Shown piece after piece: positions 21,030 to 23,086 of a stretch of DNA of 37,805 nucleotides. Numbering within the stretch: position 1 is the first letter of the stretch; the number at the start of each line of letters is the position of its first letter. The stretch is from Terriglobales bacterium. Lineage in GTDB: Bacteria > Acidobacteriota > Terriglobia > Terriglobales > Acidobacteriaceae. The DNA lies in contig DASSIZ010000070.1 in the NCBI GenBank assembly GCA_035691485.1, positions 1 through 37,805 on the forward strand, given 5' to 3'. The notes below the pieces were generated by a model. That model worked only from the letters and a program-made list of their open reading frames with translations, ran no database searches and had not been told where the DNA came from. The translations under genes were made by a program, and so were the position numbers.

Positions 21030-21995
21030 CTAACGCTGGCTACTGATTTCCAAGACCACTTTCCCAAAATTCTTCCTTTCCATCAGCAGGCGATAGGCGT
21101 CGGCAACCTTCTCTAGCGGCAGAACGTGTCCGACCACCGGATGCAATCGGCCGGCATCGATCCACTGCTTCAACTGCGCCCATGCAGGCCGCATCAGATC
21201 GGCGCGTTGCGACATCTTCGCCAGCCATAGCCCGTGCACGCTGGTCTGCTTGTCATACAAAATCCGCGGATCCAGGGAAGCGCGCTCGCCGCTGGCGGAC
21301 CCGTAGGTGATCACGCTTCCGAAAAAACTCAGGCAGCGCGCGCTCTTTGCGACGTGCTCGCCGCCAAGCATCTCCAGCACCGCATCCACCCCCCCGCCGC
21401 CGGTCAGCTCGCGGATCTTGGCCTCGTAATCATCGCGCTTGTAGTTGATCGGGTGCTGCAGGCCGAGCTTTTGCACCTGCGCAAGCTTTTCATCCGAGGA
21501 GGCAGTGCCGTACATCTCCAGCCCGAGCACGCTCCCGATTTCTACCGCCGCGGTTCCTACTCCGCCCGCCACGGCATGGATCAACACGCGCTTTCCGCGC
21601 GCCTGCTCGTCCGCCAGTCCGGCCTTCCAGTACGCGAAGTACGCGGTGAAGTAATTGACGGGGAATGCCGCCGCTTCGTTAGCGGACCATTTTTCCGGCA
21701 CCGGCCACAGCAGGTCGGGCGAGGTGGCAATTTTTTCCGCGAACGCCCGGCTCTGTGTGTAGCCCATTACGCGCTCACCGGTATCTTCCCGGCGACCGGC
21801 GAATTCGCGTCCCGCAACCAGCGGCGGCTCCGGCGTTCCCGGGTATCCGCCTTGCGCTGCCATGATGTCGGCAAAGTTCAAGCCCGCCGCTTCCACTCGC
21901 ACCACCACTTGCGCCGGCTTGGGCTGCGGATCGGGTGCCGTGCGGACCTCCAGCACCTCCGGTCCGCCGTAGCGCGTAATGACTGCGGCTTTCAT
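21030..21995 (-). CDS. zinc-independent quinone oxidoreductase (MDR superfamily)
   Basis: A 321-residue NADPH:quinone reductase-like enzyme of the medium-chain dehydrogenase superfamily. It starts MKAAVITRYGGPEVLEV. The GroES-like half (1-130) lacks the catalytic-zinc Cys/His pattern of alcohol dehydrogenases. The Rossmann half has VAGGVGTAAVEIGSVLG, followed by TASSDEKLAQVQKLG. Substrate is not predictable; quinones or enones are usual. Start at the ATG 21995 (TTG 22004 is the frame limit). It is the first gene downstream of the structured RNA and terminator at 22076-22244, which may control it. Confidence 0.92.
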   Translation of the reverse strand: MKAAVITRYGGPEVLEVRTAPDPQPKPAQVVVRVEAAGLNFADIMAAQGGYPGTPEPPLVAGREFAGRREDTGERVMGYTQSRAFAEKIATSPDLLWPVPEKWSANEAAAFPVNYFTAYFAYWKAGLADEQARGKRVLIHAVAGGVGTAAVEIGSVLGLEMYGTASSDEKLAQVQKLGLQHPINYKRDDYEAKIRELTGGGGVDAVLEMLGGEHVAKSARCLSFFGSVITYGSASGERASLDPRILYDKQTSVHGLWLAKMSQRADLMRPAWAQLKQWIDAGRLHPVVGHVLPLEKVADAYRLLMERKNFGKVVLEISSQR

Positions 21996-22075
21996 GGCAA
22001 TCAAGAGAACGGGCGATTCTATCGCAGATTGCGTTGCAGGCGGGTCTGGGCACCGGCGGTGGAACGCCGGCCGCA

Positions 22076-22120
22076 GAAAAGAAAAACCGGCGCGGTTCTC
22101 CCCCGAGACTTGCGCCGGTT
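22076..22120 (-). terminator. strong intrinsic terminator upstream of the quinone oxidoreductase
   Basis: A perfect 9-pair GC-rich stem AACCGGCGC/GCGCCGGTT (22112-22120 with 22085-22093) with an 18-base loop is followed on the minus strand by TTTCTTTTC. It is the strongest terminator in the window. It could end the lipoprotein transcript or act as the expression platform of a leader regulator. Confidence 0.8.
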
Positions 22121-22244
22121 CCCTAAGGCTTCCGACTTCAGCGCCGGGGAAAATTTACGGCTGGTCCCGTTCCTGCCCGGCGCACGAAAGCCTTAAATGT
22201 TGCCGCCGCCTCCGACATGGTTGTGTTCGGCCCAATAGCGGCGG
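22076..22244 (-). ncRNA. structured RNA element ending in an intrinsic terminator (possible riboswitch or small RNA)
   Basis: The minus strand can form three consecutive hairpins. H1 pairs 22238-22244 with 22203-22209 (7 GC-rich pairs). H2 has an outer stem of 7 pairs (22188-22194 with 22125-22131) and an inner perfect 8-pair stem GCGCCGGG/CCCGGCGC (22176-22183 with 22141-22148). H3 is the terminator. The GCGCCGG arms of H2 could also pair with the H3 arm, allowing a switch between forms. It lies 81 bases upstream of the oxidoreductase. I recognised no named riboswitch class, so the function is unknown. Confidence 0.5.
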
Positions 22245-22300
22245 ACTTGGGGCTTATGCCCGGCTTCAACTTGCGACACTCTGGGAGGGGGGTCAATCAC
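22193..22300 (-). CDS. candidate 35-residue peptide (GTG start), uncertain
   Basis: A frame with a GTG at 22300 encodes a 35-residue hydrophilic peptide ending HNHVGGGGNI, with VRRYWAEHNH before it. Its stop (22193-22195) touches the base of hairpin H2 of the structured RNA, as would be expected of a leader peptide or a small secreted or modified peptide. There is no convincing ribosome site (AGGCGG only three bases away) and the coding potential is confounded by the RNA structure. Low confidence. Confidence 0.2.
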   Translation of the reverse strand: MIDPPPRVSQVEAGHKPQVRRYWAEHNHVGGGGNI

Positions 22301-22456
22301 AAACCGCCTGTGGCGTGTTGACTGATTGAGTAACCGTGCGCCAGGTTCGAGAATGGAACCAGGAGAGTTGCATAACTGCAGCGATGCCGAATTGCGGAAT
22401 TGAGCGAACCCCGCCGACAAACTCCCTCATCCGCGGTGCTGCAAAGCCGCAATTTC

Positions 22457-23086
22457 TTACATTCCTTCTTTGCCGCGTTTCTGGACGTAGACCAGGGCGA
22501 ATTCACTGCCCGACCCGCTCGGCTTGACCGCCACAATGTGCTCGCGATCGGGGGTGCCCGCCTTCAGTTCAACGTCCTCGCCATGGGATCCCTTGTCGCA
22601 GTTGATCTCCTTTTCGTCGCTCGATTGTTTATACGAAACGAAGCCCTGCTGCTTGCACTCCAGGAACGTTCCGCCAAACTCCTTCATCTTGGGACGATAG
22701 AACGCCAGCACCTTGTCGGGCGAATCGTTGCTGCGGAACTTGATCGCCACCACCTTCAGCCCCATACCGCCCACCGAGATGTTCACATTCGCAGCGTCTC
22801 GATCGTTCTCCAACTGTTCAACCCGCTGCGCTCCCGGGTAAACCGGAAGACCTGTGTCTTTGACATCCACATCGCTGTTGACCTTGATACTGCCAAACGG
22901 CGTGCTGATGTCGACCTTCTTTTCGCCGCTGTTGGTTCTTCCTTCGTGCACGGAGCAACCGGCCAGCAGCGCCAGCGACGCCACCGTGATCACGGCGGAC
23001 TTAAGGAGTCGAGTGACTGGAAATCCCGTGTGGATTCGTCCTTTGCGCTGGAACCTGTAACCGGGAAACTGATTTTTTGTGAACAT
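22457..23086 (-). CDS. putative lipoprotein, unknown function
   Basis: A 209-residue protein with a type II signal sequence ending LALLAGC (lipobox Cys near residue 44), preceded by an unusually long n-region (about 27 residues). The mature part contains VDISTPFGSIKVNSDVDVKDTGLPVYPGA and IKFRSNDSPDKVLAFYRPKMKEFGG, a pattern seen in acidobacterial lipoproteins that I cannot assign. It has two further Cys residues. The only usable start is the ATG at 23086, so it overlaps the end of the GH3 gene by 86 bases. Probably attached to the periplasmic membrane face. Confidence 0.75.
   Translation of the reverse strand: MFTKNQFPGYRFQRKGRIHTGFPVTRLLKSAVITVASLALLAGCSVHEGRTNSGEKKVDISTPFGSIKVNSDVDVKDTGLPVYPGAQRVEQLENDRDAANVNISVGGMGLKVVAIKFRSNDSPDKVLAFYRPKMKEFGGTFLECKQQGFVSYKQSSDEKEINCDKGSHGEDVELKAGTPDREHIVAVKPSGSGSEFALVYVQKRGKEGM

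Follow-up and report, generated by a model that had tools for sequence, protein, structure and literature searches.

What lies in the 461-base gap (21996-22456) upstream of a quinone oxidoreductase gene in the 37,805-nucleotide stretch of Terriglobales DNA analysed here (the window)? The gap is flanked by a gene without a Pfam match, ending at 22457, and by the oxidoreductase gene, starting at 21995 (21033-21995, minus strand; zinc-binding dehydrogenase family, Pfam PF13602, PF00107 and PF08240). A first-pass annotation had placed three hairpins in the gap, the last described as a textbook terminator, and had proposed either a new leader regulator or a small RNA (sRNA). The hairpins are present as placed, with good coordinates, and the element is read on the minus strand, as are all features given with window coordinates below.

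Fold of the element in the window

The 5' domain is a hairpin (CCGCCGC...GGCGGCGG; 22202-22246) that is retained in two congeners. It is followed by a middle rod (22123-22196) with an outer helix AAGGCUU/AAGCCUU, an inner helix GCGCCGGG/CCCGGCGC (pair probability 0.987 to 1) and the tip ACGG-GACCAG-CCGU. In G003, GGG/CCC of the rod is changed to GAG/CUC, an exchange of G-C for A-U. The last hairpin (hp3; AACCGGCGC...GCGCCGGUU with a U5CU4 tail; 22077-22122) has pair probabilities of 0.92 to 1 and its stem covaries among 37 distinct alignment rows. As a hairpin with a U-tail it is the terminator that had been described, though the word textbook slightly overstates it: its stem is interrupted by an internal loop, and a simple consensus scan of the window reported neither this terminator nor a promoter at the element. 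The fold of 22060-22260 had a z-score of -2.53, 3 of 200 dinucleotide shuffles being as good and 197 worse.

Covariation and conservation of structure

Many members of the family combine three hairpins: hp1 (GGCCG...AGAUGAGCGGCC), which often encloses a smaller hairpin; hp2, whose sequence varies; and the terminator hp3. The covariance model matches the window at 22075-22186. In the alignment of 37 distinct rows, 94.9% of cells are paired. Compensatory changes, which the first-pass annotation had suggested seeking in relatives with a covariance model, were found on both sides in 12 of 22 base pairs (47 cells vs 11.3 in shuffles). On each of five covariation measures, not one of 500 shuffles came up to the observed value; the shuffles ignore relatedness, and the rows were aligned to the model and are thus biased towards the structure. 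When partners were slid by one to three columns, pairing fell to 45 to 56%. Double changes in hp1 and in the outer stem of hp3 can be read plainly from the alignment.

Hairpin 2 lies outside the model. Folded alone it gave z ≤ -2 in 18 of 23 properly cut segments, a test restricted to instances with ATGAGCGG (28 of 38), from which two mis-cut segments (195 and 194 nt) and three of only 11 to 13 nt were excluded, and in which L049/L057 and L010/L039 are identical. Two short forms (L009 and L043) do not contain hairpin 2; both hp1 and hp3 are retained in them, and the -35 element of their promoter match is weaker (TTGCCA). The window's genus has a different 5' half: the rod (22196-22123) occupies the place of both hp1 and hp2, and two congeners share it.

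There is no conserved reading frame in the element. Translation of a small protein from the conserved AUGAGCGG was considered and rejected because the frames differ: among 22 relatives, the conserved AUG stands in frame 0, 1 or 2 relative to the loop.

Comparison with known RNA families

A structured RNA of unassigned type had been proposed, and this description stands, given the strong covariation and the result of the Rfam search: in Rfam 15 no family reaches its gathering score over the element, the window's sole match being 16S rRNA. It covers the 5' portion of a minus-strand 16S rRNA gene (1-424), truncated by the contig end; a scan of the window for tRNA and tmRNA found none. Below threshold, STnc450 scored 12.5 bits over the element (gathering score 37, E = 9.6) and proV scored 18.9 bits on the opposite strand of L003 (gathering score 88.5, E = 3). 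Rfam scans of 16 further loci gave no match up to E = 1.

6S RNA (RF00013) is also a single-copy structured RNA of similar length, but the locus has no RF00013 match and the genome's 6S match lies elsewhere (G000:C24), as a separate gene. Sponges of the CsrB/RsmY type have GGA-containing hairpins. The element shares these; their partner CsrA, however, was found in none of 37 family genomes, and a CsrA sponge was rejected. Two candidate noncoding RNAs of Acidobacteria, Acido-1 (RF01686) and Acido-Lenti-1 (RF01687), have been published (PMC2864571). They come from the same phylum, but the element matches neither in the Rfam 15 scans. A 2022 survey gives only four distinct annotated sRNAs for all Acidobacteria (PMC9029176). 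Among the best open-access literature matches, there was no paper on sRNAs of this acidobacterial family.

A conserved promoter precedes the element

The small RNA option is supported by a conserved promoter preceding the element as well as by covariation. The family pattern consists of GTTATC-N6-GTAAAC, about 20 bases, TTGACC, 17 to 18 bases and a CATCTT-like -10 element, and could be placed in 34 of 38 instances. In the window, the upstream box, a putative activator site, is GTTACT-N6-GTCAAC (22317-22334), the -35 element is TTGACC (22291-22296) and, after a 17-base spacer, the -10 element is CAAGTT (22268-22273). In the 34 placed instances, the -35 element has TTG in all, A in 29, C in 31 and the final C in 24, and the spacing between it and the upstream box is near-fixed (the window is one base off the consensus position). 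The -10 element is one base further on in seven of the 34 and the last T of the hexamer is present in all 34, but it is weak compared with TATAAT. A weak -10 element suits a promoter that would require an activator.

As the placement was iterative, the leave-one-out profile is the test of this pattern. Trained each time on other instances less than 60% identical, its top placement agreed with the pattern in 31 of 34 instances and was one base off in the other three; four of the 38 (L035, L055, L057 and L066) were omitted, and at L055 and L066 there is no good promoter match.

From the promoter we infer a start site near 22261. The inferred transcript, from promoter to terminator, covers 22074-22261 (about 188 nt) and is likely to be slightly longer than the stretch first annotated (22076-22244). 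In the 34 instances, the distance from promoter to tip implies RNAs of 111 to 219 nt, with a median of 168. The sRNA is predicted to have its own conserved promoter and an intrinsic terminator.

Distribution and inheritance

Searching 61 genomes at the DNA level recovered most of the element from two congeners and, from further genera of the family, its terminator part. An exact match to the pattern GGCGC-N0-8-TCTCGGGGGAGAA-N0-8-GCGCC is present in 25 of 150 family genomes, as a single copy in all but G145, which has two; a reversed control gave no occurrence throughout. The two copies of G145 (contigs C150 and C243; L049 and L057) are near-identical and may reflect either duplication or assembly overlap. 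With a covariance model built on 20 members (R1) and a threshold of E ≤ 0.01, matches were obtained in 40 of the 250 family genomes searched. In a sample of the phylum, it matched 7 of 297 genomes: five belong to the family, and two with weak matches lie outside it (G432 and G483). The rebuilt model (R2), run on 398 family genomes, matched 42 at E ≤ 0.01 and 38 at E ≤ 1e-7, counts in which many of the matched genomes had themselves supplied sequences to the model. The covariance searches used strict filters and scored few candidates per genome, so that misses are possible. In the genome scan, 12 of 26 stretches were excluded by eye as unrelated, either coding or hairpins without the upstream parts (L058, L060, L061, L064, L065, L068, L069, L074, L075, L077, L079 and L082). 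The hp3 tip alone can yield moderate R1 scores, as it does in L064 (32.9 bits), L061 (30.5 bits) and L060 (24.3 bits).

Relatives with a name include Candidatus Korobacter versatilis, assemblies of Candidatus Angelobacter and others titled Acidobacteriales. Most carriers have one copy of the sRNA per genome. At no fewer than 20 of 31 loci, judged by eye, a divergent PIN-TRAM gene is present (Pfam was applied to one locus, and further cases were assigned by position). Outside the window's genus, 9 of 11 non-carriers have the PIN-TRAM gene adjoining the oxidoreductase, with the RNA absent. In the window's genus, the PIN-TRAM gene is elsewhere and the RNA still lies beside the oxidoreductase. Coupling in cis to the PIN-TRAM gene is not required, because the RNA and the gene are apart in the window's genus.

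In a tree based on PIN-TRAM from 29 genomes, the presence of the RNA needs two changes, compared with 10.0 in shuffles; the tree covers 29 of 30 loci (G001 omitted), among 54 listed matches, and has a poorly resolved backbone with 6 of 26 inner branches well supported. This distribution fits vertical inheritance, with one old gain and subsequent losses at a PIN-TRAM/sRNA/quinone oxidoreductase locus. In G001, of the same genus, PIN-TRAM was matched twice, on separate contigs, and the sRNA was not detected.

The leaders of the PIN-TRAM genes have recurrent hairpins of their own, seen by eye about 100 to 170 bases before the start codon (for example, in L125, L126, L127, L137, L144 and L145). 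Their stems are GC-rich but vary in sequence, their loops carry UUCAU repeats, and a TATATACT motif lies further up. Automatic folding of 30 PIN-TRAM leader loci gave no uniform structure.

Because of its structure, its own promoter and terminator, the lack of a frame, the mostly single copy and the vertical distribution, the element is very probably a standalone sRNA gene. The predicted gene is new, seen in part of one acidobacterial family and not listed in Rfam.

The terminator tip is the most widely kept part

The tip of the terminator hairpin (UCUC-GGGG-GAGAA; 22096-22108) is near-invariant among covariance-model matches and is proposed as a functional loop. The 13-mer TCTCGGGGGAGAA occurs in 37 of the 42 genomes matched by the covariance model and its inner 11-mer CTCGGGGGAGA in 40. 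The remaining two are L119, with an extra G in the loop, and L166, a chance match to an ordinary perfect hairpin. In L163 and L165, from another genus (E = 6e-4 and 4e-4), the outer stem is wholly different and the tip identical. Among the four weak R2 matches (L163 to L166), these two share the tip and, by eye, hp2 with L066; L164 is unsure. The count in 42 genomes and the two replaced stems are fairer evidence of conservation than the rows of the alignment (A3), most of which were first gathered by the tip motif. As the G-rich tip is the most widely kept part of the RNA, we propose that it is probably the working part of the sRNA.

How would such a tip act? There is a precedent in RepG of Helicobacter pylori, an sRNA encoded between genes that uses its terminator loop for targeting (PMC8295292). 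RepG comes from a different phylum; the loop here is G-rich, which predicts C-rich targets. In the proposed mechanism, an activator would bind the GTTATC-N6-GTAAAC box, some 64 bases upstream of the start, and drive the weak promoter, and RNA polymerase would yield an RNA of roughly 110 to 220 nt that stops at the terminator. The tip UCUC-GGGG-GAGAA, rich in G, would then pair with C-rich UUCUCCCCC stretches in mRNA leaders, which would alter translation or stability of the mRNA, possibly with Hfq. The genus-specific 5' domains may fold, protect the RNA or add specificity. Loop pairing on its own is put forward tentatively as the mechanism; against it counts that a 4-bp stem closes the tip and leaves only about four G free. 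Taken as a whole, combining the firmer part with the more tentative one, an sRNA gene under an activator and acting by terminator-loop pairing with C-rich leaders is a likely reading of the locus. It is possible, though less likely than not, that the terminator itself is the functional module, a kissing-loop regulator of C-rich mRNA leaders with a dedicated activator site, whose G-rich tip has outlasted replacement both of its stem and of the 5' half.

The two alternatives that come closest agree with terminator-loop pairing on the gene and differ from it solely in the role of the RNA. In the main rival, the tip is recognized by an RNA-binding protein, which the RNA titrates or scaffolds in a manner resembling 6S or CsrB with another protein. 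A tip closed by a stem, whose sequence is kept while the outer stem is changed or replaced, is what would be expected of a protein site, and the 5' domains are indeed replaceable between genera. However, the obvious partner, CsrA, was found in none of the 37 family genomes searched, 6S RNA is a separate gene and a single site per RNA would make a poor sponge; we consider protein binding rather unlikely.

A base-pairing sRNA with its seed in the 5' half, in most members the AGAUGAG loop of hp1, and with hp3 as a mere terminator is improbable. ATGAGCGG is found in 30 of 40 aligned rows and lies inside the covarying hp1. It is, however, missing from the window's genus and from several others that retain the hp3 tip, and a mere terminator would not be expected to retain its loop sequence through replacement of its stem.

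The family would be a well-supported new group of sRNAs with a defined promoter, a putative regulator site and a specific loop. Nearly everything except the promoter and the terminator tip has been swapped, so that the family offers a natural experiment on what selection maintains in an sRNA.

Relation to the quinone oxidoreductase gene

The first-pass annotation had suggested a leader regulator, with terminated and antiterminated forms both possible; on this reading the element would be a cis-acting leader of the oxidoreductase, an attenuator or riboswitch. The element does lie directly upstream of the gene and in the same direction, and the complementarity over seven bases between hairpin 2 and the terminator arm, on which the proposal drew, is truly present in the window. 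The alternative fold in which the terminator arm is directed upstream is, however, 8.5 kcal/mol worse (-78.0 vs -86.5), and antiterminator pairs have a probability of 0 to five decimals. In L034 and L006 the same rearrangement costs only 1.5 and 3.1 kcal/mol, respectively. Of 38 instances, six have upstream complementarity of at least seven bases to the 5' arm of the terminator and five to the 3' arm. The switch between terminated and antiterminated forms was rejected on energy and on this absence of conservation.

The -10-like box of the oxidoreductase, TAGAAT (22016-22021), is downstream of the terminator and shortly precedes the start codon, and TACAAT, TACACT or TAAACT boxes precede the oxidoreductase in several relatives, both carriers and non-carriers of the RNA. 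Furthermore, by eye, the downstream gene is different in other carriers (for example, L006, L033 and L046). Regulation of the oxidoreductase by a leader is very improbable. Still less probable is a conserved terminator or insulator between two transcription units, with the RNA itself functionless: the element does separate two genes and has a strong hairpin at its end, but this would not account for a dedicated conserved promoter, covarying internal hairpins and a near-invariant tip.

Hfq and candidate targets

Terminator-loop pairing may involve Hfq. Of 37 family genomes, 36 have an Hfq match, and in 35, including G000, it is strong (E ≤ 1.6e-25). G004, a carrier about 90% complete, has only weak matches (best 2.7e-7). 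Many family genomes have three Hfq-like matches; in G000, one is strong (1.0e-26) and two are weak (9.9e-8 and 4.5e-6). A terminator with at least seven T is reported as a feature of Hfq-binding sRNAs of Escherichia coli (PMC5558911). Runs of at least seven T occur in 4 of 38 instances of the element, and the longest run in the window is five (U5CU4), short of the E. coli figure.

The complement of the tip, TTCTCCCCC, occurs 20, 32 and 24 times in G000, G002 and G003, compared with 4, 8 and 13 for the reversed word, each TTCTCCCCC count including the sRNA gene itself. One or more of the conserved TTCTCCCCC sites is the Shine-Dalgarno sequence of a gene on the opposite strand (L169, L191 and L234). 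As a conserved site can be a Shine-Dalgarno sequence, the excess of TTCTCCCCC is no evidence of targeting.

Two of the sites point to candidate targets. In the leader of Ku, UUCUCCCCCGA begins 31 bases upstream of the start codon in G000 and 30 in G002, with 11 bases complementary to the tip; the identity of Ku in G002 rests on near-identity to the G000 protein. Ku was not located in G003, where none of the sites could be assigned to it by eye. In the leader of an OmpA-family protein in G003, UUCUCCCCC lies between a Shine-Dalgarno-like AAGGAG and the AUG. The leaders of Ku and of the OmpA-family protein, selected by the complement search itself, are candidate targets and count as leads, not as evidence. 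Energies as low as those of the tip-site duplexes were reached by 0, 1 and 0 of 200 shuffled sites, the sites having been pre-chosen for their match.
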